NCBI RefSeq assembly: GCF_026914265.1
Contig: NC_069135.1
Coordinates: 9,894,887 to 9,958,886, forward strand
Reading direction: 5' to 3'
Length of the DNA: 64,000 bases
DNA from: Mya arenaria
Lineage: Eukaryota; Mollusca; Bivalvia; Myida; Myidae
Part shown: positions 1 through 43,112 of the stretch, one piece after another
Numbering within the stretch: the stretch's first letter is position 1
Layout of the letters: every line of letters begins with the position of its first letter
Position numbers and translations under genes: made by a program
The notes under the pieces: model-generated
What the model was told of the DNA's origin: nothing
The model's database searches: none
What the model saw: only the letters and a program-made list of their open reading frames with translations

Positions 1-3000
1 TAATCCTCCATTGTTTAAGATATGGTTTTACCTCAAAGATTTAAGATTACATTCTGGCTACCACAGTGTCAACAATGTCTTAAATTTTCTATTTACATCC
101 GTTTTTCGGCAATTTTTCAGCGTTTGTTAGAATTCGTCACCGAAACATCTGAAACTTAAAGAAATAATGCACCAGTCAATTGTAACTACGGCCCCCCAGG
201 TCCGGGGGTATACCGGGGATAGCCGGGGAAATAGGCCGTGTTTTTACCTTTCAGGTGGCCCCGCCGTGCCGGACGAATGCGGAGGTTTTGTCTTCGCGCA
301 AAATATAGCGGGGAATTCGCCTTACCTGGGGTGCGGGGGCATTTGGCGGGGATTTGACCATCAGTTCGTCCCCGCAGGGCGGAGATTTTACCCCGGGTTG
401 GCTGGACCGAAAGTCAACGTCCCCGCTATTCCCCGGACCTGGGGGGGGGGGCGTGGTTACAATTGACTGGTGCATAAGAAGAGCCTAAATTAAAATGCGA
501 ACGGAGCGAGTCTTCGTTTTGTAATGTTGACTGTCCCGACCCTTATAATTAGCCAGTTACGGCTTCTTGGTGTAGAGAAATGTTTCTTAAAATCCTCCAT
601 TGTTAAAGCTATTGTGTTAAGATCACAATCTGGCGAAAACAGTGTCCACACTTTTTTAAATCTTCTATTGGCATCCGTTTATTTGTATTTGACACCAAAA
701 CATCAGAAAATTAAAGAAATAAAAAAACTAAATTTGAATAACTTACATGCGAACGGAGAAAGTCCTCGTTTTGTTATTTCATTGCCAACGACCCCTTTAG
801 CCAGTTACGGCTTCTGGATGAAGTGAACTTGTTTTTATAATCCTTCATTGTTTAAGCTATGGTGTCTAGATCACATTCTGGCGACCACAGTGTCTACAAT
901 TCCTATAATATTCTATTGGCATTCGTTTTTCGGCAATCCTTCAGCGTTAATAAGTATTCGTCACCCAAACATCTGAATATTAGATAAGAAGACTCTAAGT
1001 AAATTAAATTACATGCGGTCGGAGCGAGTCCTCGTTTAGTGATGTTAAGAGCCACCAACCCCTTTAACCAGTTACGGCGTCTCGGTGAAATTAATTGGGG
1101 TTTTTGTGAAATCCTCCATTGTTTAAGTTATGGTGTTTAGATCACATTCTGACTACCACAGTGTCTACAATTCCTATTATCTTTTATTGACGTCCGTTTT
1201 TCAGCAATCCTTCAGCGGTTAAAAGTATTCGTCACCGAAACATCTGAAAATTAAAGAAATAAAAAGACGCTAAATTAAATTAAATAACATTCGATCGATG
1301 CGAGTCCTCGTTTAGTTATATTGACTGCCATCGACCCCTTTAGCCAGTTACGGCTTCTTGGTGTAATATAATGTTTCTAAAAATCCTCCATTGTTAAGAA
1401 CATATTCTGCCTACCACAGTGCCCATACTTTCGTTAATCTTCTCCTTTTTTCGACAACCCTTCAGCGTATTTTAGTATACGTCACCGAAACATCCTAAAT
1501 TAAAATAACATACATGCGAACGGAGCAAGTCCTCGTTTTGTTATTTTCACTGCCATCGCCCCTTTAGCCAGTTACGGCTTCTGGATGTAGTGAAATGTTT
1601 TTGTAATCCTCCATTGTTTAAGCCGTGTTTATAAAATCGCATTTTGGCTACCACAGTGTCTAAAATTCCTATCATCTTCTATTTACATCCGTTTTTTTGC
1701 AATCCTTCGGCGTTTGTTAGAATTCGTCACCGAAACATCTGAAAATTAAAGAAATAAGAAGATCCTAAATAAAATTAGCCTACATGCGAACAGAGCAAGT
1801 CCTCGTTTTGTAATATTGACTGCCACCGACCCCTTTAGCCATTTACGGCTTCTTGGTGTAGAGAAACGTTTCTTAAAACACTCCATTGCTAAGGCTATGG
1901 TGTTAAGATCACATTCTGGCGATAACAGTGTCCACATTTTCTTAAATCTTTTATTGACATCCGTTTTGACATCGGCAATCCCTCAACGGTTAAAAGTATT
2001 CGTCACCGAAACATCTGAAAATTAAAGACATAAGAAGACGCTAAATTCAATTAAATAACATGCGATCGGTGCGAGTCCTCGTTTAGTTATATTGACTGCC
2101 ATCGACCCCTTTAGCCAGTTACGGCTTCTTGATGTAATATAATGTTTCTTAAAATCCTCCATTGTTAAACCTATATGGTGTTACGAACATATTCTGCTAC
2201 CATAATGCCCATACTTTCGTTAATCTTCTCCGTTTTTCGACAATCCTTCAGCGTATTTTAGTATACGTCACCGAAACATCTAAACATTAAACAAATAAAA
2301 ACATAAATTAAAATAACATACATGCGAACGGAGTAAGTCCTCGTTTTGATATTTTCACTGCCATGACCCCTTTAGCCAGTTACGGCTTCTGGATGTAGTG
2401 AAATGTTTTTGTAATCCTCCATTGTTTAAGCCGTGTTTATAAGATCGCATTTTGGCAATCACAGTGTCTTCAGTTCCTATAATCTTCTATTGACATCCTT
2501 TTTTGGCAATCTTTCAGCGTTTGTTAGAATTCGTCACCGAAACATCAGAAAATTAAAAAGAAAAAGATCCTAATTAAATTAACTAACATGCGAACAGAGC
2601 AAGTCCTCGTCTTGTTATATTGACTGCCACCGACCCCTTTAGCCATTTACGGCTTCTTGTTGTAGAAACTTGTTTCTTAAAACACTCCATTGTTAAAGCT
2701 AAATTCTGGCTACCACAGTATCCACACTTTCTTAAATCTTCAAATGACATCCGTTTTTCGGCAATCCCTCAGCAGTTAAAAATATTCGTCACTGAAAATT
2801 AAAGATATAAGAAGATCCTAAATAAAATTATCTTAAATGTGAACGGAGCGAGTCCTCGTTTTGTAATATTGACTGCCACCGACCCCTTAAGCAAGTTACG
2901 GCTTCTTGGTGTAGAAAACTAAACTGTTTTTTATTATCCTCCAGTGTTAAAGCTATGATGTTAAGATCACATTCTGGCTACCACAGTGTCCACAATTTCT

Positions 3001-3598
3001 TAAAAACTTCTATTGGCCTTCGGTTTTCGACAATTCTTCAGCGTATTTTAATATTCGTCACCATAACATCTGAAAATTAAAGAAATAAATGAGTAAATTA
3101 AAATAGCATACACGCGAAAGGTGCAAGTCCTCGTTTTGTTATTTTCACTGACATCGCCCCTTTAGCCAGTTACAGCTTCTGGATGTAGTGAAATGTTTTT
3201 TGTAATCCTCCATTGTTTAAGTTATGGTTATTAGATCACATTCTGGTTACTACAGTGTCTACAATTTCTTAAATTTTCCATTGGCATCCGTTTTTCGGCA
3301 ATCCTTTAGCGTTTGTTAGAATTCGTCACCGAAACATCTGAAAATTAAAGAAAGATCCTAAATTAAATTAGCCTACATGCGAACAGAGCAAGTCCTCGTT
3401 TTGCTATGTTGACTGCCATCGCCCATTAGCCATTTACGGCTTCTTGGTGTTGAGAAATGTTTCTTAAAATATTCCATTGTTTAAGCTATGGTGTTCGGAT
3501 CACATTCTGGCAATAACAGTGTCCACACTTTCTTAAATACTTTATTGATATCCGTTTTTTCGGCAATACTTCAGAGGTTAAAAGTATTCGTCACCGAA
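1..3598. repeat. ~265-bp satellite array, trimeric higher-order repeat (first block)
   Basis: About thirteen head-to-tail copies of a 225-276 bp unit are marked by a recurring GAGCGAGTCCTCG-like box followed by TTTAGCCAGTTACGGCTTCT and TTCGTCACCGAAACATCTG. The box recurs near 511, 762, 1028, 1304, 1529, 1799, 2074, 2337, 2603, 2852, 3127 and 3392. From 1304 on, three subtypes alternate. A is at 1304, 2074 and 2852. B is at 1529, 2337 and 3127, with GGCTTCTGGATGTAGTGAAATG. C is at 1799, 2603 and 3392, with AGCCATTTACGG. This gives a ~790-bp trimer. Short open frames inside are by-products of the repeat. No gene is seen. Confidence 0.9.
168..474. mobile_element. GC-rich MITE, copy 1, with 3-bp TAA target duplication
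   Basis: A 307-bp element begins TGCACCAGTCAATTGTAAC and ends with its inverted complement; the inverted similarity continues through the C-rich and G-rich tracts for more than 40 bp at each end. It is flanked by TAA (165-167 and 475-477). The host satellite reads AAAGAAATAAGAAG at this place in its other units, so the empty site is known and the duplication is exactly 3 bp. A 3-bp TAA/TTA duplication fits the PIF/Harbinger superfamily; that assignment is inference. Other copies lie at 22,325, 33,384 and 36,112. The open frames inside are not genes. Confidence 0.88.
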
Positions 3599-5834
3599 GA
3601 TACAAGATACAAGATAAAAGAATATTTAAAGTCGGGTATGTGTTAACAAGAAACATTAGCTCAATGAGCTATTTTCCGATATAAATAACCGACATACATA
3701 ACATATCAAATAAAAATAACAATGAGTGACCTGGAAATAAAAGTATATATGTTAAAATCATCACATATTAGAGCATGCATACAAATAGGAAAATTGGATT
3801 AGAGCATCGAGAACAGTGATAACATCATCAAGTTTTCCCGGCTGCACGGCCAGTCCACACGCGCACGGTTCCACTAGTTGATATACCACTGTAAAATGGT
3901 TTGTTTTTTCAAAAGTATAACTTAAAGGGTAATCATATACATTAAAGTAGCAAAATTGTAAGTAGCAAAATATACAAGGGAATAACAGCTTTGTACATGG
4001 ATGTGCAGTTTGTAAAAAAAAACTTAATAGTGAAACACATAGTGAAACCTGGTTATTAGAATGGCGAACGTCGTTGTTCGGGCGGGCGGGCCGGCGGGCG
4101 ACTTGGCGGTGTCAAACTCACCTATGAAACTGAATAACTTTAGTAAGAGTTGACATATCTTGACCAAACTTGGTCTATAGAAAGAGTTTATGGGTACCTT
4201 TCATGTGATTGCGTTTTGGGTCCCTAGGGTCAAGGTCAAGGTCACTGTTACTAAAAATAGAAAAACGGTTGAAACTGAATAACTTTAGTAAGGGATGACA
4301 TATCTTGACTAAACTTGGTCTAAAGGAAGAGTTTATGGATACCTTTCATGGGATTGCGTTTGGGGTCCCTAGAGCCAAGGTCAAGGTCACTGTTACTAAA
4401 AATAGAAAAAACGGTTGAAACTGAATAACTCTAGTTAGGGATGACATATCTTGACTAAACTTGGTCAATAGGAAGAGTTTATGGAGACCTTTTATGGGAT
4501 TGCGTTGGGGGTCCCTAGGGTCAAGGTCACTGTTACGAAAAATAGAAAAACAGTTGAAACTGAATAACTTTAGTTAGGGTTGACATATCTTGACTAAACT
4601 TGGTATAAAGAAAGAGTTTATGGATACCTGTAATGGGATTGTGTTTGGGGTCCCTAGGGTCAAGGTCAAGGTCACTGTTACTAAAAATAGAAAAACGGTT
4701 GAAACTGAATAATTTTAGTTAAGGATGACATATCTTGACTAATCTTGGTCTATAGGAAGGGTTTATGGAAACCTTTCATGGGATTGCGTTTGGGGTCCCT
4801 AGGGTCAAGGTCACTGTTACTAAAAATAGAAAAACGGTTGAAACTGAATAATTTTAGTTAAGGATGACATATCTTGACTTAACTTGGTCTATAGAAAGAT
4901 TTCATGGGTACCTTTCATGGGATTGCGATTGGGGTCCCTAGGTTTAAGGTCAAGGTCACTGTTACTAAAAATAGAAAAACAGTTGAAACTGAATAATTTT
5001 AGTTAGGGTTGACATATCTTGACTAAACTTGGTCAATAGGAAGAGTTCATGGAGACCTTTTGTGGGATTGCGTTTGGGGTCCCTAGGGTCAAGGTCACTG
5101 TTACTTAAAATAGAAAAACAGTTGGAACTGAATAACTTTAGTTAGGGTTGTCATATCTTGACTAAACTTGGTCTATAGGAAAAGTTTATGGATACCTTTC
5201 ACGGGATTGCATTTGGGGTCCCTAGGGTCAAGGTCACTGGTACTAAAAATAGAAAAATGGTTCAAACTGAATATCTTAAGTTAGGGTTGACATATCTTGA
5301 CTAAACTTGGTCTATATTAAAAGTTTATGGATACTTTCATGGGATTGCGTTTTGGGGTCCCTAGATTCAAGGTCAAGGTCACTGTTACTAAAAATAGAAA
5401 AACAGTTGAAACTGAATAATTTTAGACAGGGTCTACATATCTTGACCAAACCAGGTATAAAGGAAGAGTTTATGGATACCTTTCATGGGATTGCGTTTGG
5501 GGTCCATAGATTCAAGGTCAAGGTCACTGTTACTAAAATTAGAAAAATGGTTGAAACTGAATAACTTAAGTTAGGGTTGACATATCCTGACACAACTTGG
5601 TATAAAGGAAGAGTTTATTGATACCTTTCAATGGATTGCATTTGGGGTCCCTAGGGTCAAGGTCACTGTTACTAAAAATAGAAAATCAGACACAGGCTGA
5701 AGTTCTTCTGTCAATCATTAAAAACCTGGTTTCGTCGCATTGCGGCGTTTCTTGTTTACATATATATTGGACATTTATAAGAGGGACCTGTCCAGATGCA
5801 GATCAGCCTTCTAAATTCCAGGTAGGTTTGAGAG
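3599..5834. mobile_element. 2.2-kb insertion in the satellite with 7-bp direct repeats
   Basis: The satellite is cut at CACCGAA (3592-3598) and resumes at the same heptamer (5835-5841) followed by ACATCTG, so the uninterrupted satellite sequence predicts the junction exactly. The insert starts with GATACAAGATACAAG, has an AT-rich left part, a G/C-rich stretch near 4075-4110 (GGCGGGCGGGCCGGCGGGCG), a tandem core, and a tail with GTCAATCATTAAAAACCTGG and a GCATTGCGGCG segment near 5,740. No long coding region is present, so it is non-autonomous. The tandem-core architecture resembles the bivalve 'pearl' type of element. It could also be two nested insertions. Confidence 0.7.
4110..5690 (+). repeat. 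~142-bp tandem core, about eleven copies
   Basis: Each unit contains TTGAAACTGAATAACTTTAG, TTGACATATCTTGAC, AAACTTGGTCTATAG, ATGGGATTGCGTTTGGGGTC and GGTCAAGGTCACTGTTAC in that order. The TTGACATATCTTGAC box recurs about every 140-146 bp from near 4,150 to near 5,577. Units are clearly related but diverged. The same unit is found on the minus strand at 30,290-30,830 and as a single degenerate copy at 52,340-52,580. Confidence 0.9.
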
Positions 5835-9918: not shown

Positions 9919-10905
9919 TATGCCCTCAAAGGTGGGCATATTAAAATCGCACCGTCCGTCCGTCCGTCCGTCCGTCCGTGTGTCCGGCTCAATCACTCGT
10001 GTCCGGGCTGTAACTTTCCCTTGTATCGACAGATTTTAAAATAACTTTCCAAATGTGTTTGACATACCAAGACCATGTGTCGCATGCAATACCCGTGTCC
10101 CTACCTTTAAGGTCAAGGTCACACTTAGTGTTTATTCACAATGGAGTGCTGCATACACGGACATAGGGTATAGGTTGTCGTGTCCGGGCTGTAATTTCCC
10201 CTTGTATGGACAGATTTTAAAATAACTTGCCACATGTGTTCCACATACCAAGACGACGTGTCGCGTGCAAGACCCGTGTCCCTACCTCTAAGGTTAAGGT
10301 CACACTTAGGTGTTTATTCACAATGGATTGCTGCGTATAAGGACATAGAGTATAGGTTGTCCTGTCCGGGCTGTAACTTTCCCTTGTATGGACAGATTTT
10401 AAAATAACTTGCCACATGTGTTCCACATACCAAGACGACGTGTCGTGTGCAAGACCCGTGTCCCTACCTCTAAGGTCAAGGTCACACTTAGGTGTTTATT
10501 CACAATGGAGTGCTGCTTATAAGGACATAGAGTATAGGTTGTCGTGTCCGGGCTGTATCTTTCCCTTGTATGGACAGATTTTAAAATAACTTGCCACATG
10601 TGTTCCACATACCAAGACGACGTGTCGCGTGCAAGACCCGTGTCCCTACCTCTAAGGTCAAGGTCACACTTAGGTGTTTATTCACAATGGAGTGCTGCAT
10701 ATAAGGACATAGAGTATAGGTTTTTGTGTCCGGGCTGTTACTTTCCCTTGTATGGACAGATTTTAAAATAACTTGCCACATGTGTTCGACATACCAAGAC
10801 GATGTGTCGCGTGCAAGACCCATGTGCTTACCTCTAAGGTCAAAGTCACACTTTGATGTTTATTCACAATTTAATGCTTATAAGGACATAGAGTATAGTG
10901 ATAAC
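9919..10905 (+). mobile_element. Tandem-core ('pearl'-like) element with 182-bp units
   Basis: Starts TATGCCCTCAAAGGTGGGCA, then a (CCGT)n tract at about 9,955-9,980, then five copies of a 182-bp unit (GGGCTGTAAC-type box near 10,007, 10,188, 10,370, 10,552 and 10,734). Units share GTCAAGGTCACACTTAGGTG and CCACATACCAAGACGA. The short ACGG/CCGT microsatellite beside a tandem core is the published architecture of bivalve pearl elements. No transposase is encoded. The middle units are almost identical, which suggests recent expansion. Confidence 0.82.
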
Positions 10906-13817: not shown

Positions 13818-14690
13818 ATAATGTCGTAACATCAAGGTGACTAAATGCCGTAAGATCAAGAAGACTAAATGCCGTAAGATCATGAATATTAAATATAGAA
13901 AGATCAACAAGATTGAATGCCGTAAGATCAAGAATACTAAATGCCGTAAGATCAAGGAGATTAACTGTCGAAAGATCAAGAAGACTATATGACGAAAGAT
14001 CAAAAAGACTAAATGTCGAAAGATCAAAAAGACTTCGTGTAAAAGATAAAGAATACTAAATACCGTAAGATCAAGAAGAAAAGATGTCGAAAGATCAAGA
14101 AGTCTAAATGACAAGAGATCAAGAAGACAAAATGCCGTAAGATCATGAATACTAAATGTCGTAAGATCAAGAAGACTAAATGTCGGAAGATCATGAAGAC
14201 TATATGACGAAAGATCAAGAAGACTAAATGTCGAAAGACCAAGAATACTAGATGCCGTAAGATCAAGAAGACCAGATGACGACAGATCAAGAAGCCTAAA
14301 TGTCGAAAGATCAAGAATACTAAATGCTGTAAGATCAAGAATACTAAATGCCGTAAGATCATAAAGACTTAATGTAGAAAGAACAAGATGACTAAATGTC
14401 GAAAAATCAAGAAGACTAGATGTCGAAAGATCATGAATATTAAATGACGAAATATCAAGAAGACTAAATGCCGTAAGATCAAGAATACTAAATGCCGTAA
14501 GAGCAAGAAGACTGAATGTCGAAAGATCAAGAAGACTAGATGACGAAGGAACAAGAAGACTTAATGTCGAAAGACAAAGACTACTATATGCCGTAAGATC
14601 AAGAAGACTAAATGTTGAAAGATCAAGAATACTAAATGCCATAAGATCAAGAACACTTAATGTCGAAAGATCAAGACGACTAAAGGGTGA
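13818..14690. repeat. 24-bp minisatellite, about 36 copies
   Basis: Consensus AAATGCCGTAAGATCAAGAA plus GACT, repeated head to tail with substitutions. The period is a multiple of three, so the minus strand stays open for up to 286 codons as an octapeptide repeat (LDLTAFSL-like) in one frame and for long runs in another. Several frames being open at once, the lack of any non-repeat flanking domain, and neutral-looking variation argue that this is non-coding. Confidence 0.92.
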
Positions 14691-15240: not shown

Positions 15241-16145
15241 TCACATAAGGTTTACATGATGGAACGTCATTTGACCCATCACAAACGTCGTTTTTGAAGT
15301 ATCAGAGGTATGTCGAAGATGTTGCGTCATGGATGCATTATAATAGTATAATAATTATAAGAATATGAATGCATTTGAGGAGATATGCGTCCAAATAAGT
15401 GAACACAATCCTGTTCGCCCATAACAACACTGCATTCGATAAACACCCTTTAAGTCCTCGTGATCTTAGAAACCAGACCGCACTTGTCGGGAAGTAACTA
15501 GTTTGATTTGCATCACAGGCCATAATTTAATTTATTCTCACTGCACTACTTCCGTCAGCTTAAGTAATGTCCTTTAGATCAAACTGATAGAAGAATTATT
15601 AACTTAAACTTTTATCAAACGCATTAATATAATAAAACAGCGATTTCTGAAAATGTAATAGATTTGTTCTGTGGTAAGGAAATGCGTTATTTGTTCTTGA
15701 ACTGCAGCCGGAACTCAGTAGATACGCCATAAACCTCCTGGTAACGAGTCCGTGAAAATGTTCCAAAAAATGTAAAATTTTAGTGTTAAAACCAGTCTGG
15801 CATGAGGAAAGTGTCCTATTAAATGAAAAACTCATTTTTATCATCAACTGTCAAATTCAAACTCTACAAAACTGTCACATTCTTCATGTTTTGGCAAAGG
15901 TTCTTTCTTATTTTTTGTTAATGAAATCCCCCACCCACCCCCAACCATTAGTTTTCTTTTCTTTTTACGATTTTGGAGTTGCTTGATTGTTAAGTATACT
16001 TTTTGGCGACGACGCAGTCTCGAGAACATAAACTATTGAGTAATTGGCTGGTGTTAAAGCATGGGGCTCATTTTATGTGCATTGTTAAGTATGTGGTTGA
16101 TATGTATGGTGACATATAACAGCCGTAAGATAACCTGTAAACGTT
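15241..16145. other. Intergenic; includes a dispersed repeat at 15,551-15,755
   Basis: No gene. 15,551-15,755 resembles 39,480-39,680: both have GTCAGCTTAA near one end and ACTGCAGCCGG/ACTGAAGCCGG followed by AAACCTCCTGGTAA/AAACTCCTGGTAA near the other, with diverged sequence between. This looks like a short dispersed repeat of unknown class. Confidence 0.45.
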
Positions 16146-16154
16146 CGCGAATTG

Positions 16155-18045
16155 ATGTACGTGAAGTTAGCGGCCTAGCGGCCTAGCGGCGTGAAGTTAG
16201 CGGCCTAGCGGCCTAGCGGCGTGAAGTTAGCGGCCTGGCGGCCTAGCGGCCTAGCGGCGTGAAGTTGGCGGCCTAGCGGCCTAGCGGCCTGGCGGCCTAA
16301 TTATTTTTTCTATTTCCAAGCAATTGTTAATGCGTTTTTTTTTTTAAACAATGATAAATCAAGGTTTTTTATTCATATAGTTACATAGCGGCCTTAAATT
16401 GTTATATATTCAGAATATTTTTCTTTACCTTTTATTCTAAAACAATTTTAAATTAACTGTTTTATGCACAAATTATCACTCTGAAGCGTTTGTCAAACTT
16501 TTTTCAAAAAGTCGATCAAGCACTTCAGCGACCTAGCGGCATAGAAGCCTGAAATTAGCGGCCTAGCGGCCTAAATTGAATCCTATTTCAAAGCATGTAT
16601 ACATGCATTTTCTTCTAAAACAATAACATTTTAACTGTTTTTATGCACAAATTAACACATTGAAGCGATTATCAACAGTTTTTTTCCAAAAACGTCGATA
16701 AAGCAGTCAGCTATTTCAAAGCATTAAACATGCCTGTTCTTCTTAATCAATGATATATTAACTGTTTATATGCACAAATTATCACTCTGAAGCGTTTTTC
16801 AACTTTTTTTCAAAAAAGTCGATCGAGCACTTCAGCGGCCTAGCGGCCTAGCGGCGTGAAGTTAGCGGCCTGGCGGCCTAGCGGCCTAGCGGCCTAAAAT
16901 GGTATCCTATTTTAAAGCATGTATACATGCATTTTCTTCTAAAACAATGACATATTAACTGTTTTTATGCACAAATTAACACTTTGAAGCTATTAGCGAT
17001 TATCAATATTATTATTTTTTTTAAAGCGTCGATAAAGCAGTCAGCTATTTCAAAGCATTAAACATGCCTGATCTTCTAAAACAATGATATATTTACTGTT
17101 TTATGCACAAATTATCACTCTAAAGCTTTTTTTTATTTTTTTTCAAAAAAGTTGATCGAGCACTTCAGCGGCCTAGCGGCCTAGCGGCGTGAAGTTAGCG
17201 GCCTGGCGGCCTAGCGGCCTAGCGGCCTAAAATGGTTTCCTATTTCAAAGCATGTATACATGCATTTTCTTCTAAAACAATGACATATTAACTGTTTTCA
17301 TGCACAAATTAACACTTTGAAGCAATTAGCGATTATCAACATTTTTTTTTAAAAGCGTCGATAAAGCAGTCAGCTATTTCAAAGCATTAAACATGCCTGA
17401 TCTTCTAAAACAATGATATATTTACTGTTTACATGCACAAATTATCACTCTGAAGCGTTTTTCAACTTTTTTTCAAAAAAGTCGATCGAGCACTTCAGCG
17501 GCCTAGCGGCCTAGCGGCCTAGCGGCGTGAAGTTAGCGGCCTGGCGGCCTAGCGGCCTAGCGGCCTAGCGGCCTAAAATGGTATCCTATTTCAAAGCATG
17601 TATACATGCATTTTCTTCTTAAACAATGGCATATTAACTGTTTTTATGCACAAATTAACACTTTGAAGCTATTAGCGATTATCAACAGTTTTTTTAAAAG
17701 CGTCGATAAAGCAGTCAGCTATTTCAAAGCATTAAACATGCCTGTTCTTCTAAAACAATGATGTATTTATTGTTTTTATGCACAAGTTATCACTCTGAAG
17801 CGTTTTTCAATTATTTTTCAAAAAAGTTGATCGAGCACTTCAGCGGCCTAGCGGCCTAGCGGCGTGAAGTTAGCGGCCTGGCGGCCTAGCGGCCTAGCGG
17901 CCTAAAATGGTTTCCTATTTCAAAGCATGTATACATGCATTTTCTTCTAAAACAATGACATATTAACTGTTTGAATGCACAAATTAACACTTTGAAGCTA
18001 TTAGCGATAATCAACATCTTTTTTTTTCAAAAAAGTCGATTAAGC
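16155..18045 (+). repeat. Left arm of the foldback element (six GC blocks)
   Basis: GC-rich octamer blocks lie near 16,165-16,294, 16,534-16,575, 16,838-16,895, 17,167-17,230, 17,500-17,573 and 17,842-17,905. The second block is a degenerate version (GCGGCATAGAAGCCTGAAAT), and the outermost spacer is of a distinct sort (AAATCAAGGTTTTTTATTCA). Confidence 0.9.
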
Positions 18046-18089
18046 AGTCAGCATACATGCCAATCCTTCTCAAAAATATGTTCATAATC

Positions 18090-20968
18090 GCCTCAGAGTG
18101 ATAGTCTGTGCATAAAAACAGTTAACATATCATTTTTTTAGAAGAAAATGCATGTAGTCATGCTTTGAAATAGGATAGCATTTTAGGCCGCCAGGCCGCT
18201 AGGCCGCTAGGCCGCTAACTTCACGCCGCTAGGCCGCTAGGCCGCTGAAGTGCTTGATCGACTTTTTTTTAAAAAGTTGAAAAACGGTTCAGAGTGATAA
18301 TTTGTGCATAAAAACAATAAATATATCATTGTTTTAGAAGAACATGCATGTTTAATGCTTTGAAATAGATGACTGCTTTATCGACGCTTTTGAAAAAAAA
18401 AACTGTTGATAATCGCTAATAGCTTCAAAGTGTTAATTTGTGCATAAAAACAGTTAATATGTCATTGTTTAAGAAGAAAATGCATGTATACATGCTTTGA
18501 AATAGGATACCATTTTAGGCCGCTAGGCCGCCAGGCCGCTAACTTCACGCCGCTAGGCCGCTAGGCCGCTAGGCCGCTGAAGTGCTCGATCGACTTTTTT
18601 GAAAAAAAAGTTGAAAAACGCTTCAGAGTTATAATTTGTGCATATAAACAGTAAATATATCATTGTTTTAGAAGATCAGGCATGTTTAATGCTTTGAAAT
18701 AGCTGACTGCTTTATCGACGCTTTTAAAAAAAAATGTTGATAATCGCTAATTGCTTCAAAGTGTTAATTTGTGCATAAAAACAGTTAATATGTCATTGTT
18801 TTAGAAGAAAATGCATGTAAACATGCTTTGAAATAGGATACCATTTTAGGCCGCTAGGCCGCTAGGCCGCCAGGCCGCTAACTTCACGCCGCTAGGCCGC
18901 TAGGCCGCTAGGCCGCTGAAGTGCTCGATCAACTTTTTTGAAAAAAAATAAAAAACGCTTTAGAGTGATAATTTGTGCATAAAACAGTAAATATATCATT
19001 GTTTTAGAAGATCAGGCATGTTTAATGCTTTGAAATAGCTGACTGCTTTATCGACGCTTTTAAAAAAAAATGTTGATAATCGCTAATTGCTTCAAAGTGT
19101 TAATTTGTGCATAAAAACAGTTAATATGTCATTGTTTTAGAAGAAAATGCATGTAAACATGCTTTGAAATAGGATACCATTTTAGGCCGCTAGGCCGCTA
19201 GGCCGCCAGGCCGCTAACTTCACGCCGCTAGGCCGCTAGGCCGCTAGGCCGCTGAAGTGCTCGATCAACTTTTTTGAAAAAAAATAAAAAACGCTTTAGA
19301 GTGATAATTTGTGCATAAAACAGTAAATATATCATTGTTTTAGAAGATCAGGCATGTTTAATGCTTTGAAATAGCTGACTGCTTTATCGACGCTTTAAAA
19401 AAAAAAATATTGATAATCGCTAATAGCTTCAAAGTGTTAATTTGTGCATAAAAACAGTTAATATGTCATTGTTTTAGAAGAAAATGCATGTATACATGCT
19501 TTGAAATAGGATACCATTTTAGGCCGCTAGGCCGCCAGGCCGCTAACTTCACGCCGCTAGGCCGCTAGGCCGCTAGGCCGCTGAAGTGCTCGATCGACTT
19601 TTTTGAAAAAAAAGTTGAAAAACGCTTCAGAGTTATAATTTGTGCATATAAACAGTAAATATATCATTGTTTTAGAAGATCAGGCATGTTTAATGCTTTG
19701 AAATAGCTGACTGCTTTATCGACGCTTTTAAAAAAAAATGTCGATAATCGCTAATTGCTTCAAAGTGTTAATTTGTGCATAAAAACAGTTAATATGTCAT
19801 TGTTTTAGAAGAAAATGCATGTATACATGCTTTGAAATAGGATACCATTTTAGGCCGCTAGGCCGCTAGGCCGCCAGGCCGCTAACTTCACGCCGCTAGG
19901 CCGCTAGGCCGCTAGGCCGCTAGGCCGCTGAAGTGCTCGATCAACTTTTTTGAAAAAAAAATAAAAAACGCTTTAGAGTGATAATTTGTGCATAAAACAG
20001 TAAATATATCATTGTTTTAGAAGATCAGGCATGTTTAATGCTTTGAAATAGCTGACTGCTTTATCGACGCTTTTAAAAAAAAAATATTGATAATCGCTAA
20101 TAGCTTCAAAGTGTTAATTTGTGCATAAAAACAGTTAATATGTCATTGTTTTAGAAGAAAATGCATGTAAACATGCTTTGAAATAGGATACCATTTTAGG
20201 CCGCTAGGCCGCTAGGCCGCCAGGCCGCTAACTTCACGCCGCTAGGCCGCTAGGCCGCTAGGCCGCTGAAGTGCTCGATCGACTTTTTGAAAAAAAGTTG
20301 AAAAACGCTTCAGAGTGATAATTTGTGCATATAAACAGTTAATATATCATTGATTAAGAAGATCAGGCATGTTTCATGCTTTGAAATAGCTGACTGCTTT
20401 ATCGACGTTTTTGGAAAAAAACTGTTGATAATCGCTTCAATGTGCTAATTTGAGCATAAAAACAGTTAAAATGTTATTGTTTTAGAATAAATGCATGTAT
20501 ACATGCATTGAAATAGGATTCAATTTAGGCCGCTAGGCCGCTAGGCCGCTAATTTCAGGCTTCTATGCCGCTAGGTCGCTGAAGTGCTTGATCGACTTTT
20601 TTGAAAAAAAGTTTGAAAAACGCTTCAGAGTGATAATTTGTGCATAAAACATTTATTTTAAAATTGTTTTAGAATAAAAGGTAAAGAAAAATATTCTGAA
20701 TATATAACAATTTAAGGCCGCTATGTAACTATATGAATAAAAAACCTTGATTTATCATTGTTTTAAAAGAAACGCATTAACAATTGCTTGGAAATAGAAA
20801 AACTAATTAGGCCGCCAGGCCGCTAGGCCGCTTGGCCGCCAACTTCACGCCGCTAGGCCGCTAGGCCGCCAGGCCGCTAACTTCACGCCGCTAGGCCGCT
20901 AGGCCGCTAGGCCGCTAACTTCACGCCGCTAGGCCGCTAGGCCGCTAGGCCGCTAACTTCACGTACAT
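18090..20968 (-). repeat. Right arm of the foldback element (nine GC blocks)
   Basis: Inverted counterpart of the left arm. Blocks lie near 18,186, 18,517, 18,848, 19,183, 19,522, 19,851, 20,199, 20,527 and 20,812. The degenerate block and the distinct outer spacer are mirrored at 20,527-20,580 and 20,640-20,810, so the outer two units pair one to one with the left arm while the inner units are more numerous. Units at 18,841 and 19,177 are nearly identical over 336 bp. Confidence 0.9.
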
Positions 20969-20977
20969 CGCGAATTG

Positions 20978-21460
20978 TTTTCTGTTAACCACTTCATTTT
21001 CGCGATAATTATCTAGCTACCTAGTTTATGTTCGCGAAACCTTTTCGGTAAGATAAATATCATAATACTTAAAACTGGCTTCAAAGTGCCCAGAACTGCC
21101 ACCTGTTACCTTTTTTAGCTGTATAAACATTAACAGTCTTACTAGTTAGGTTTTGCGAATTGCGCTTAATAAGTAACATATTAACTGGTTAACTAGACAT
21201 CTTACGGCATTTACGTATATGCCACCATAGATATGAAAGTACACTGAAACCACAATTATTAATCCCATTGTCTCTCTTTAACGTATCCATAACTCTTTGA
21301 ACAATACGCATTAGCTATTTATTTTATTTTGTTTAACATCACCATTTTACAACATTCTTCCGCCTTTTAATTTGTTAAAAGGCATCTTTTGACAACTTGT
21401 TCTAAATTTCACGAACTGATGTAGTTTTTATTTGGCATGTTGAAAAGTGCATACCTCTAA
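20978..21460. other. AT-rich intergenic
   Basis: No gene or repeat recognised beyond the target duplication that borders the foldback element. Confidence 0.6.
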
Positions 21461-23586: not shown

Positions 23587-25400
23587 GAACAAAATTAAGT
23601 ACATAAAATGTTTTTAATTCATTTAATTAAACAGGTTTCACAAGGTTAACAAAATATAACACAATTAAATAATTATATCTGGAACAAAATTCCACCGTGA
23701 ATTATGCTAAAATTTCTTAACAAACTGACAGATCCTGTCCTCTGACGTTTTTATGTACACATTGATTAGTGTATGTGTATAAGGGAGGCAATAACGTCAT
23801 GATTTAGCTATATAGTGGCAGTTATTTGCGGTCACATGACATGACAGTGAATTTTAGCCTGGTCACGTGTCAAAAAAGTTGAAAATGTTTCTGATAGTCA
23901 AAATATCTTCTTTTTCTGGTAATGGGATTTCACCATTGTAGACAAAAGTGAGGTATAATAATTACAAATAACATTGGAAATTTGTAACCGTAGAAAGGCA
24001 GTCTCTATTTTAATACTCAAATTTAGGGAACAAAACATGCATTAAATTCCTTTACGAAAGTAACAAAACGACTTTTGTTTAGATCAAATGTCAAAACACA
24101 ATTGCTTTTGCTGTTTTTCTTCCTTTCGTTTCAGTTTCAAGAATTATCATTATTGATATTACTACCGTAATGTTTCTCTCAATGAATTAAATAAAACTGT
24201 TCTCACAAGCAACATAGAAGTAAGAAATGATAATAGTCATTGTAAATACACATACTTTTACTTAACATGTTAAATTTGTGTTATTTACAAAGATAAAATT
24301 GTGTTACCTATACGTGTATACTGTTTGTGACCTTAATTTATGTGATATTAAATCTTTTATCTAGATTTAATAAAAATAAGTGTAACTCAAATTAACTGAG
24401 TTGTCATTTTTACTAACAGTAAATGTGTATTTTCAAAAAAAACTGAGAGGCAAATGTATATGCTTCGGATTTAAAACTTTACGAACAAGAACGAAACAAA
24501 ATGAAAATAAATCGCAAGATATCGTCAATATTATACACAAATTATCATAATATTAGTTCTTGTTTAAAGACTTTTGACAAGTGCAGATTGTCGGAAGGCA
24601 TGGCGGATAGCAAAGGGCAACTGATAAGCCCCACCTAATCTGTATGCTGATTTGTCAGTCGGGTATCGACCGGCTAGTTTGACTGACAGGCTGCGTCATG
24701 TCAAGTGCAGATATTGCAGTTAAGAAAATATGCATACATTATGCCTTGTCGTGTTATTTCATTTAAATATTTTTGCACTAGAACTTAAAATTGTGGTGTG
24801 TCTATTCTGCATATGGAGAATTAATTGTATTACATGTATTTGATATTCTAAAAAATGAAACTATATCTATTTGTATACATGGCTGCCTGTCTAATCATTT
24901 AAAACGTTATACATCATGTGTTTTATTTAAGTATAAAGCGTACTTTTGATGTTATGTCATACTCAATCGATGTAATGTCATATTTAAAAATGAGATGCTA
25001 TTGAAATATTTATGTACGAGCATTAAGTACTTCTCCTTTATGAACTTAATGTTCTTTTAAAAGCTTAATTCCTGTAATAAGACGTATAAGGATTTAAATA
25101 AACTATTCCATAAAGGATAACTTTACTATAAAATATGGACATTTACTGTTTGTGTTTACTTCTAGCAAATATTGTTATCTCAAACCCGGATACGTCATAA
25201 ATTTGACTCATAGCCCAGAGTAAGTATAGATTCAATCACCGCGAATGAAATTAATATATATAATGTATGGTTAACTTGAAAACAATGGTTTATCAACCTT
25301 TAAAACTCTCCCCATATATGAACAGCGTTCATCTCTCACAGCGTTATCAGTATGTACCAGTTTATTGAACAACAAGGTTGGACTAAACTCACAAGATAAC
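23587..25400. other. AT-rich intergenic and presumed 5' flank of the first glycosyltransferase gene
   Basis: No coding region. A TATATATAAT run at 25,254-25,263 lies about 140 bp before the glycosyltransferase start and could act as a TATA element; this is only positional. The 60 bp before the start codon resemble those before the second gene (ACTAAACTCACAAGATAAC versus ACTAACCTACAAAATAAC), so the duplication included the 5' untranslated region. Confidence 0.5.
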
Positions 25401-26876
25401 ATGAAGTTGTGGTTAAGGACAGCGGTTATACTTGTCGTGATTGCGTGTGTTTCTATAATTTCCTCGTTTATAAAAATAAAAGCCCCATGGAGTTTGAGCA
25501 GCAATGTCGTGCATGAGGATATTCGTCAAAACAGCACATTCTTCCAAACGCACTCAGCTCGGAAACTTCGCCCAAGACGAAAGTTTATGCGGAGGCAATC
25601 TGAATTAGCAGAAAAATACAAGATTAGTGTGTCACCCGAGAATGTTTCAATTCATGTGCAAAATGTTACTAATGCCGGCCTAAATGTGCATGGCATCGGT
25701 GAGTGGACATGGCCAAATCTAGATGCAAACCAGATACAAGCGGCCATTGGAAAAGTCGAGGAAATGTGTACCGGAAGCTTTATCGGATACGACCATAGTT
25801 TTGCCTTACTCAATAACGTCACTGTTGATCCGAAATTTGGGCATGGCAGAAAAGGTGGTGAAAACATATCTGATGTCATAAATCAGAGAGAAGATTTGGA
25901 ATATCATACTTTAGAAAAGGGGTACTTCAAGCTGCGCTGTCAGGAAGGTAAACCATACCATTTCAAACAGAAGAGCCATTTAAATAACTGGTTTAATGCA
26001 CTAGACTTTTACAACCAGTCCACTAAAATAATATCTACTCAACAACGGTTTCGTATGACAGCAATCGCGATTAAGAGGTTTGAATACGCAAATCTATATC
26101 ACACAATGACGGACTTTTACAACGCATTTCTGGTCGCTAAAGTTCTTAAGCTGGCACCTGACCACGTGACCGTATTTATAGTGGACGGACACCCTGCAGG
26201 TGCGCTGGACGACACTTGGTCACGACTCTTCGGTGGAATGATTCGTGCAGGTGAGATAACTGAAGCAGTAACAATCCAGCGTATGGTCTGGTCCACCATA
26301 GGCTACGACAGCATGCTTAACAGCCACCATCTACATCAAGTGCCATTTCTGGAGGAATTTAGGAGCTTCTTTCTCTCAAGACACTCTTTACATTTCAACG
26401 ACGCACTCGACTGTGATAACCTGACGGTAGTACTCCTTTTACGAAAAGACTATTTAGCTCATCCTAGAAACCCATCAGGATCAGTGAGCAGAAAAATAGC
26501 AAATGATAAAGAACTTGTTCAAAGTCTTAAGGAATTTTTGCCTCAACATAATGTGATAAGTTCTCAAATCGATCTTTTTTCAATGAAAGATCAGTTGAGT
26601 CTGATTTCCAGGACGGACATACTGATTGGCATGCACGGTGCCGGCCTTACCCACACGTTGTTCCTACCAAAGCATGCCGGCTTGATCGAGCTTTACCCGA
26701 ACTACTGGCCCACTGCAAATGTACACTTTCAGGCCATGGCACGCTGGAGAAACCTCAAATACTTACAATGGCAAAATACTGATCCGTCTAATGAACATGC
26801 AAATGAATATACTGTCATTAATAAAAGTGCGCTTTTGGGAATGGTGAAAAATATGCATTCTTCAATATGCAGCTAG
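25401..26876 (+). CDS. GT61-family (EOGT-like) glycosyltransferase, copy 1
   Basis: Intronless 491-residue gene. An in-frame ATG lies 36 bases upstream, but the ATG at 25,401 is chosen because it aligns with the second copy's start and directly precedes the membrane anchor. Residues about 5-27 form a single hydrophobic segment after a short basic end, predicting a type II ER/Golgi protein. A stem with several N-glycosylation sequons follows. The C-terminal two-thirds is a family-61 (DUF563) domain: RFEYANLYHTMTDFYNAFLV near 233, VDGH near 261-264, and DILIGMHGAGLTH ending near 417, the family's most conserved motif, then LFLPKHAGLIELYP. The general style is closest to EOGT (EGF-domain O-GlcNAc transferase), but donor and acceptor cannot be read from sequence. 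A diverged-plus-identical relation to the gene at 41,637 shows tandem duplication. Confidence 0.93.
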   Translation: MKLWLRTAVILVVIACVSIISSFIKIKAPWSLSSNVVHEDIRQNSTFFQTHSARKLRPRRKFMRRQSELAEKYKISVSPENVSIHVQNVTNAGLNVHGIGEWTWPNLDANQIQAAIGKVEEMCTGSFIGYDHSFALLNNVTVDPKFGHGRKGGENISDVINQREDLEYHTLEKGYFKLRCQEGKPYHFKQKSHLNNWFNALDFYNQSTKIISTQQRFRMTAIAIKRFEYANLYHTMTDFYNAFLVAKVLKLAPDHVTVFIVDGHPAGALDDTWSRLFGGMIRAGEITEAVTIQRMVWSTIGYDSMLNSHHLHQVPFLEEFRSFFLSRHSLHFNDALDCDNLTVVLLLRKDYLAHPRNPSGSVSRKIANDKELVQSLKEFLPQHNVISSQIDLFSMKDQLSLISRTDILIGMHGAGLTHTLFLPKHAGLIELYPNYWPTANVHFQAMARWRNLKYLQWQNTDPSNEHANEYTVINKSALLGMVKNMHSSICS

Positions 26877-41636: not shown

Positions 41637-43112
41637 ATGAAATTGTATTTAAGGTTAACGGTTATAACGTTCGTGATTTCGTGTATTGTTATAATAACCT
41701 TGTTTATCAACATCAACGCCACATGTAGTTTGAGCAGCAATGTCGTGCATGGGGACATTCGTCATAATAACACATTCTTTCAAACGCACTCAGCTCGGAA
41801 GTTTGGCCCAAGAAGGAAGTTTCTGCAAAGGCAATCTGACATAGCAGAAAAATACAAGAAAGGTCTTGCACCCAAGAATATATCAATTCCAGTGCAAGAA
41901 ATTACCAATGCCGGCCGAAATGTGCATGGAAGGGATAAATGGACTTGGTCAAATCTAGACGAAGATCAGATACATGTGTTCATTGGAAAGGTCGAAGATG
42001 TGTGTAACGGAAACTTCATTGGATACGACAATAGTTTTGCATTGCTAAAAAACGTCACTGTTGATCCGAAATTTGGGCATGGCAGAAAAGGTGGTGAAAA
42101 CATATCTGATGTCATAAATCAGAGAGAAGATTTGGAATATCATACTTTAGAAAAGGGGTACTTCAAGCTGCGCTGTCAGGAAGGTAAACCATACCATTTC
42201 AAACAGACAAGCCATTTAAATGACTGGTTTAATGCACTAGAATTTTACAACCAGTCCACTAAAATAATATCTACTCAACAACGGTTTCATATGACAGCAA
42301 TCGCGATAAAGAGGTTTGAATACGCAAATCTATATCACACAATGACGGATTTTTACAACGCATTTCTGGTCGCTAAAGTTCTTAAGCTGGCACCTGACCA
42401 CGTGACCGTATTTATAGTGGACGGACACCCTGCAGGTGCGCTGGACGACACTTGGTCACGAATTTTCGGTGGAATAATTCGTGCAGGTGAGATAACTGAA
42501 GCAGTAACATTCCAGCGTATGGTCTGGTCCACCATAGGCTACGACAGCATGCTTAACAGCCACCATCTACATCAAGTGCCATTTCTGGAGGAATTTAGGA
42601 GCTTCTTTCTCTCAAGGCACTCTTTACATTTCAACGACGCACTCAACTGTGATAATCTGACGGTAGTACTCCTTTTACGAAAAGACTATTTAGCTCATCC
42701 TAGAAACCCATCAGGATCAGTAAGCAGAAAAATAGCAAATGATAAAGAACTTGTTCAAAGTCTTATGGAATTTTTGCCTCAACATAATGTGATAAGTTCT
42801 CAAATCGATCTTCTTTCAATGAAAGACCAGTTGAGTCTTATTTCACGGACGGACATACTGATTGGCATGCATGGTGCCGGCCTAACCCACACATTGTTCC
42901 TACCAAAGCATGCCGGCTTGATCGAGCTGTACCCGAACTACTGGCCTACTTCAAATGTACACTTTCAGGCTATGGCACGCTGGAGAAACCTCAAATACTT
43001 ACAGTGGCAGAATACTGATCCTTCTAATGAACATGCAAATAAATATACAGTCATTAGCAAAACTGCCCTTTTAGACATGGTGAAAAGTATGCATTCTTCC
43101 ATATGCAGCTGA
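41637..43112 (+). CDS. GT61-family (EOGT-like) glycosyltransferase, copy 2
   Basis: Intronless, 491 residues, the same length as the copy at 25,401 with no alignment gap. It has the same layout: a type II anchor at about 5-27, a glycosylated stem, then a family-61 domain with YANLYHTMTDFYNAF, VDGHPAGALDD and DILIGMHGAGLTH. Compared residue by residue, 48 of the first 138 positions differ but only 16 of the last 353. The change is abrupt at AACGTCACTG (42,051, equivalent to 25,815), where a 157-base stretch without a mismatch begins. The 3' untranslated regions are alignable but clearly diverged. The catalytic motifs are intact, so both genes look functional; different stem regions could give different localisation or partners. 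Confidence 0.93.
   Translation: MKLYLRLTVITFVISCIVIITLFININATCSLSSNVVHGDIRHNNTFFQTHSARKFGPRRKFLQRQSDIAEKYKKGLAPKNISIPVQEITNAGRNVHGRDKWTWSNLDEDQIHVFIGKVEDVCNGNFIGYDNSFALLKNVTVDPKFGHGRKGGENISDVINQREDLEYHTLEKGYFKLRCQEGKPYHFKQTSHLNDWFNALEFYNQSTKIISTQQRFHMTAIAIKRFEYANLYHTMTDFYNAFLVAKVLKLAPDHVTVFIVDGHPAGALDDTWSRIFGGIIRAGEITEAVTFQRMVWSTIGYDSMLNSHHLHQVPFLEEFRSFFLSRHSLHFNDALNCDNLTVVLLLRKDYLAHPRNPSGSVSRKIANDKELVQSLMEFLPQHNVISSQIDLLSMKDQLSLISRTDILIGMHGAGLTHTLFLPKHAGLIELYPNYWPTSNVHFQAMARWRNLKYLQWQNTDPSNEHANKYTVISKTALLDMVKSMHSSICS

Follow-up and report, generated by a model that had tools for sequence, protein, structure and literature searches.

What is a structure that consists almost wholly of two inverted arrays of tandem repeats, and what could have moved it? 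The question is raised by 4,814 bp of inverted sequence at positions 16155-20968 of a 64,000-bp stretch of Mya arenaria DNA (the window; contig C14:9894887-9958886 of a genome of 1.216 Gb in 18 contigs). An earlier note, made from the letters of the window, had proposed a non-autonomous member of the MuDR/Foldback group. The structure does belong to the foldback structural class, and with good confidence we regard it as a DNA transposon of foldback type that is non-autonomous and most probably belongs to the Mutator superfamily (Mutator-like elements, MULEs).

Anatomy and copies of the element

The element is bounded by exact 19-bp inverted tips, ATGTACGTGAAGTTAGCGG and its inverse, which have just these two matches in the window even when three mismatches are allowed (chance mean 0.01). 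Directly outside them stand two copies of the 9-bp sequence CGCGAATTG, confined to these flank positions within the window (chance mean 0.21; two or more occurrences in 2 of 100 shuffles). From the tips inwards, an inverted repeat of about 1.9 kb pairs element positions 1-1898 with 4814-2884 at 93% identity. The arms differ in length, 1.9 kb on the left versus 2.9 kb on the right, and carry six and nine GC blocks, respectively; Tandem Repeats Finder (TRF) gives periods of 333 at 16556-18052 and of 336 at 18085-20674. Each unit of about 335 bp comprises two related AT-rich modules of about 130 bp (76-90% alike) and one GC block. The tip motif CGTGAAGTTAGCGG is repeated within the arm GC blocks, alongside TAGCGGCC, so that the element has the tip motif inside its arms as foldback elements do. 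No open reading frame of 60 amino acids or more overlaps the window copy. Reading and searches thus bear out the inverted arms of ~335-bp units, exact tips and 9-bp direct repeats described in the earlier note, as well as its remark that the arms meet almost directly (Table 1).

The structure is far from unique. Its tip has 447 forward and 454 reverse exact matches genome-wide, against none for the reversed control and none in viral contigs, and the outer 661 bp of the element have at least 336 genome matches. We listed 100 of the 901 tips by place (53 on the plus and 47 on the minus strand, from C1 and most of C2) and found 23 others through a restricted pattern. Among the 100 listed tips are 29 pairs within 15 kb, spanning 243 to 12,584 bp with a median of 1,841.

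Target-site duplications were read in 15 fetched pairs with both ends available and in the window copy; five left and three right ends with no mate in the fetched sequence were left out. Exact 9-bp duplications flank 11 of these 16 pairs, the window copy included, in ten different sequences, as the earlier note had anticipated for a mobile element. The 15 non-window pairs comprise ten with exact 9-mers, three with one mismatch (TGAATATCT/GGAATATCT, CCCAGCCAA/CCCAGCAAA and ACTTTCAAA/ACTTTCAAC), one with the exact 8-mer CTTTAAAT and one with none (L035). The copies at C1:49673240 and C1:52146263, which are reverse complements with flanks 97-98% alike, were counted as one site, and the ten exact non-window 9-mers accordingly represent nine sites. 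When ends that are not mates were compared (345 comparisons), none agreed exactly and two agreed with one difference. One tip carries a single mismatch in 4 of the 15 non-window pairs.

The arms themselves vary: GC-block counts per arm of 6/9, 6/6, 2/4, 4/1 and others were found, so the tandem subrepeats differ in number both between copies and between arms, as in the foldback class. Short pairs of 451-963 bp have ends like those of the window copy, at times with one tip mismatch, and duplications of 9 bp, of which some contain a single mismatch; their inverted repeat measures merely 18-159 bp, and in L014 none was found. A 9.4-kb pair, C1:26409373-26418777, with the duplication TGAGGCGTT, looks to be all arm, judging from the family matches along it.

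Superfamily and the source of transposase

Membership of the Mutator superfamily is probable, to judge from duplication length, long inverted repeats and an analogue in the same genome. Known duplication lengths are 7 bp for Galileo and 8 bp for hAT and P elements; the 7-8 bp expected of a Galileo-like member of the P superfamily are not the rule here, 8 bp being found in 1 of the 16 pairs. The 8-11 bp of MULEs do describe this sample, and the long terminal inverted repeats (TIRs) of MULEs are present in the window copy.

The analogue lies at C13:29065684-29070951. There, a 529-codon open frame with matches to MULE (1e-8) and Transposase_mut (1.1e-5) is enclosed by inverted arms of tandem units of about 192/204 bp, 98% alike over 1,145 bp, with an exact 9-bp duplication, GGTCACTCC, on both sides (found by trying 17 shifts and five lengths). 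This family resembles that of the window in its inverted arms of tandem AT-rich units, its short reiterated motif (ACGTGAAATCCACT) and its 9-bp duplication, but has other tips, another unit sequence and the enclosed MULE frame. The longer MULE-encoding relative with the same tips that the earlier note had suggested looking for is therefore matched in architecture and duplication, not in tips. Exact matches to a 29-bp subterminal string of the C13 family number 116+116, while the family's transposase is found at 92% identity or more in seven places; coding copies are therefore a small minority in that family. A further copy of it, L065, has arms as well. Outside the end of the C13 element, from about 29071860 (L077), lies a minisatellite of 61 units of 42 bp.

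Inverted tandem arrays also stand on either side of the MULE frame in L080 and L081, mostly 64-68% alike, and no duplication was found at their ends; in L078 the arrays on the two sides do not pair, and around L039 there are none. In another MULE lineage (L041, 943-2542) there are 16-bp tandem inverted ends, and a search over many offsets gave CAAAAGTAC as a candidate 9-bp duplication.

At least 54 MULE-domain matches occur genome-wide (150 of 153 candidates scored). Several results weigh against the Mutator assignment. No transposase-bearing copy with the window family's tips was found among the 100 of 901 listed tips and the 23 others, Rehavkus and Merlin transposases not having been searched for. 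The tip loci that were read contain arm, or arm followed by arm-unlike sequence, and a by-eye comparison of incomplete lists put no MULE place inside a located family copy. The window element and the C13 MULE family have in common no more than a short string, ACGTGAA, and AT-rich stretches that match weakly (29 bp at best, E 0.001); none of 30 MULE loci (L039-L068) matches the window element at E 1e-3, and of five MULE relatives for which flanking sequence was read, two (L073 and L079) have no arrays there. Two of the three longest pairs listed also failed as autonomous partners: the 8.6-kb pair C1:46300899-46309471 (duplication GCATGGTGG) holds a long interspersed nuclear element frame of 1,174 amino acids with RVT_1 and Exo_endo_phos, and the 12.6-kb pair C2:8127801-8140384, with the duplication ATACCAATA, has a frame for an rve integrase in the sequence read, which covers all but 3.8 kb of its inside. 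Among the copies listed and read, a minority of the family, none has a transposase between exactly these tips, so that Mutator membership stays at probable; of the earlier note's classification, the foldback class and the non-autonomous state stood, and the superfamily is the part so qualified.

Other candidate partners were set aside. Twenty-seven tips are not followed by C, and two of these, C1:21823043 and C1:51087810, proved to be ends of ordinary arm copies (L014/L015 and L027/L028). Tip-like strings in the MULE loci L039-L068 reach at best 11 of 12 bases (L044 and L045), about chance by estimate, and these two loci stay alike past the string. Among the MULE relatives L073-L081, the arrays of L080, L081, L078 and the C13 element are all unlike those of the window element. 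The MULE-domain match nearest to a family copy (C1:51092705-51092983, L048) lies 3.4 kb outside C1:51087810-51089321. As regards the Phantom subclass, in which the transposase combines FLYWCH and MULE, P0001 has MULE and Transposase_mut, with no FLYWCH listed at E 0.1, and in L039 MULE is accompanied by a FLYWCH match that falls below its cut-off; neither has a link to the window family. The partner may be rare, unlisted, absent from the assembly, or of another kind.

The last of these options corresponds to the strongest alternative, namely that the element is of foldback type and is moved by a non-MULE transposase, its long arms having arisen convergently as in Galileo of the P superfamily. 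Foldback arms do arise in more than one superfamily, according to the relevant parts of PMC3169594 and PMC3688188, and the failure to find a transposase with these tips fits this account too. We nevertheless consider it rather unlikely, since the 9-bp length seen in 11 of 16 pairs suits the 8-11 bp given for MULEs in the 2019 survey (PMC6446971) better than 7 or 8 bp, and since this genome also contains a MULE element built on the same plan and flanked by a 9-bp duplication. That survey also assigns Rehavkus a 9-bp duplication, with TIRs of 26-400 bp (PMC6446971). The best reading, by analogy with the C13 family, is that the window family is a high-copy one probably mobilised in trans by a MULE transposase.

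Insertion sites, a probable shared master and proposed arm growth

We next consider the sites without the element, all of which are paralogous sites inside one genome. The window flanks, joined with a single CGCGAATTG (291 bp, junction at 150), gave at least 45 matches with 40 of 1,457 candidates scored: two are the flanks themselves, 38 span the junction and five are weaker or partial, two of these ending at the junction. The junction-spanning matches, at least 38, run from query 93-121 to 271 or beyond at 87-91% identity with no element between. Since they cross the junction without the element, the window copy is inserted in a repeat that is dispersed in the genome and has no interruption in its other copies; the empty sites that the earlier note had suggested looking for in other haplotypes thus have a counterpart in this paralogous form. 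Similarly, L082 reads through the L031 insertion site with a single ACTTTCAAC and no element, and the copy in L016 sits in a 69-bp array (about 1553-2051) whose next seven units are uninterrupted, with CTCACCCAT in six and a one-mismatch form in one. By eye, this 69-bp array looks tRNA-like.

The L031 flanks bear on another possibility, that the family spread mainly by hitch-hiking in mobile or duplicated sequence of other kinds and transposed little by itself. Of 58 rows in that flank search, 22 cross the junction (21 reaching just 161-162) and 14, which match the left flank, end at 149; at three of the 14 (C13:47297509, C13:47045668 and C2:17013898) a family tip or GC block adjoins, so the element occupies the same site in several copies of the L031 host sequence. 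Flanks are also common to L025 and L029, and to L011 and L012. Against this, ten fetched pairs yield nine distinct exact duplications, which, together with that of the window, show separate insertions, and we judge hitch-hiking as the main route to be very unlikely.

Arm units were compared, and a tree was built, for three copies: that of the window, C4:39800308-39804145 (duplication CATTTTGCA) and C1:46300899-46309471. The outermost (position-1) units of both arms in all three copies form one clade (local support 0.998) and are 97-99% alike among the copies, while the innermost right-arm units WR7, BR4 and C4R4 form another (local support 0.998). As the outer units hold their position across them, the three copies appear to derive from a common master. 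Inner units are less orderly: those at position 3 are of two types (BL3 with C4L3/C4R3, and WL3 with BR2), and the order of units is thus fixed in part only. Also against a strict order, WL4 and BR3 show no clear grouping, and support is weak at several nodes within the tree. The window and C4 copies, whose duplications differ, have centres with 5 differences in 288 positions, and the 29-mer at the arm-to-arm junction recurs exactly at 15 places on 10 contigs. Among the other fetched loci it is present in L001-L003 alone; in the shorter copies, and in that of C1, the centre either is a different one or lies outside the sequence read. In the window right arm, R2, R4 and R5 are 98.8-99.4% alike and R3 and R6 99.4% alike, which fits an addition of middle units.

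Long inverted arrays are difficult to assemble, and the earlier note had raised the prospect of a false inverted duplication. An assembly artefact is nevertheless highly improbable, given the identical junction at 15 places, arms that are not mirror images (six versus nine blocks, 93%) and the matching ends and 9-bp duplications of the short 451-963 bp pairs. An inverted segmental duplication or satellite array born of recombination, to which tandem arrays with changing unit number might point, can be dismissed almost entirely in view of identical tips with differing 9-bp duplications and at least 38 element-free matches to the insertion site.

For the transposon that we favour, the following mechanism is proposed. 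A MULE transposase encoded elsewhere would bind the tip motif, which is repeated in the arm GC blocks, and would pair both element ends; cutting at the ATGTAC tips would be followed by insertion through a 9-bp staggered cut. Window-like copies would stem from a master devoid of any core, leaving the arms to meet. The arms may then lengthen or shorten as middle units are gained or lost, with unequal exchange as the probable route, as in the window right arm, while the outermost unit would stay unchanged in both. More tentatively, and with the balance of our judgement against it, this core-less all-arm master could be the main transposing unit, its growing and shrinking arrays of transposase-binding motif out-competing the coding element, reaching the size of the 9.4-kb pair and perhaps seeding dispersed satellite-like arrays.

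Table 1. Parts of the element and of its host repeat, in window coordinates
Feature	Position	Strand	Basis or remark
Left part of dispersed host repeat	16103..16154	+	start differs among the 38 element-free matches, 87-91%
Left 9-bp target-site duplication copy, CGCGAATTG	16146..16154	+	direct reading and search
Left tip, ATGTACGTGAAGTTAGCGG	16155..16173	+	direct reading and tip search
Left arm, 6 GC blocks, units L1-L4	16155..18052	+	TRF, arm pairing, unit comparison
Outer GC block of left arm, reiterating CGTGAAGTTAGCGG and TAGCGGCC	16170..16295	+	direct reading, TRF
Left-arm units L1 16570-16892, L2 16893-17225, L3 17226-17571, L4 17572-17900	16570..17900	+	
Arm-to-arm junction	18042..18070	none	identical 29-mer at 15 genome places including the window
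Right arm, 9 GC blocks, units R1-R7	18058..20968	-	TRF, arm pairing, unit comparison
Right-arm units, inside to outside: R7 18188-18519, R6, R5, R4, R3, R2, R1 20201-20529	18188..20529	-	
Outer GC block of right arm	20812..20953	-	
Right tip, exact inverse of ATGTACGTGAAGTTAGCGG	20950..20968	-	direct reading and tip search
Right 9-bp target-site duplication copy, CGCGAATTG	20969..20977	+	direct reading and search
Right part of dispersed host repeat	20978..21118	+	extent as tested

Elsewhere in the window, two frames of the Glyco_transf_61 type (PF04577), paralogous to each other and 503 and 491 codons long, lie at 25365-26876 and 41637-43112. An array of 36 units of 24 bp occupies 13820-14684, with a minus-strand frame of 286 codons, which contains a short residue repeat, running through it, and further tandem arrays are found at 1488-3598 (276-bp units), 4125-5689 (145/284-bp) and 9997-10898 (182-bp).

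Relation to described elements

By description alone, the FB/FB-NOF elements of Drosophila are alike in having inverted arms that are very long and made of subrepeats, duplications of 9 bp and mostly non-coding copies, and unlike in their short FB subrepeats and NOF core. The nearest described kinds, as set by their descriptions, appear to be Tetris of Drosophila virilis and Tm1 of Meloidogyne. Tetris/DAIBAM of the virilis group is reported, in the account available to us (PMC4079207), as a non-coding foldback whose TIRs hold tandem repeats of ~220 bp, differing in number, inside a flanking domain, with duplications of 8-10 bp, a short relative resembling miniature inverted-repeat transposable elements (MITEs) with common ends, and an autonomous partner that was not found. 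It differs in a middle domain of variable size and in being described from three structurally complete copies (PMC4079207), whereas the window family has no core, bipartite units of ~335 bp with a GC block, and 901 exact tips. Tm1, from the sections on its structure (PMC3169594), shares TIRs of composite build in which the number of motif units varies, as well as 9-bp duplications and many short non-autonomous copies, and its autonomous form encodes a MULE (Phantom-like) transposase; its units are mostly of 14 bp, its ends are usually asymmetric 7-bp motifs, and 61 elements from two genomes were analysed. Galileo of Drosophila, as summarised in PMC3688188, has foldback-like long TIRs with internal tandem repeats that hold extra transposase binding sites, but a P-type transposase.

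Molluscan MULEs as such are not new, because 39 autonomous MULE consensus elements were curated in a 2023 bivalve study, as stated in its text on these elements (PMC10294476); for the MULE-Mollusca group, Table 1 of the 2019 survey (PMC6446971) gives neither the length of the duplication nor terminal repeats. Four papers that cite Tetris (PMC8268682, PMC7492417, PMC5139131 and PMC11136912) describe no molluscan foldback element in their passages on foldback (Repbase and Dfam were not searched), and the word foldback is absent from the passages concerned of PMC10294476 and PMC8905726. Among the related items in these passages, two oyster satellites are labelled DNA/MuDR (PMC8268682), and tandem-repeat MITEs in the clam Donax are cited by reference only (PMC5139131).

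The present analysis adds that, in one bivalve-like genome, foldback arms built of tandem units occur in at least two families, one of which encloses a MULE frame. Copies of the window family are similar enough (97-99% in their position-1 units) for the growth of foldback arms to be read from them. In the transmissible cancer of Mya arenaria, DNA transposons are in excess among the amplified repeats (8 of 45, in the passage on amplification in PMC10663159), and the window family could be tested for somatic movement in that cancer.

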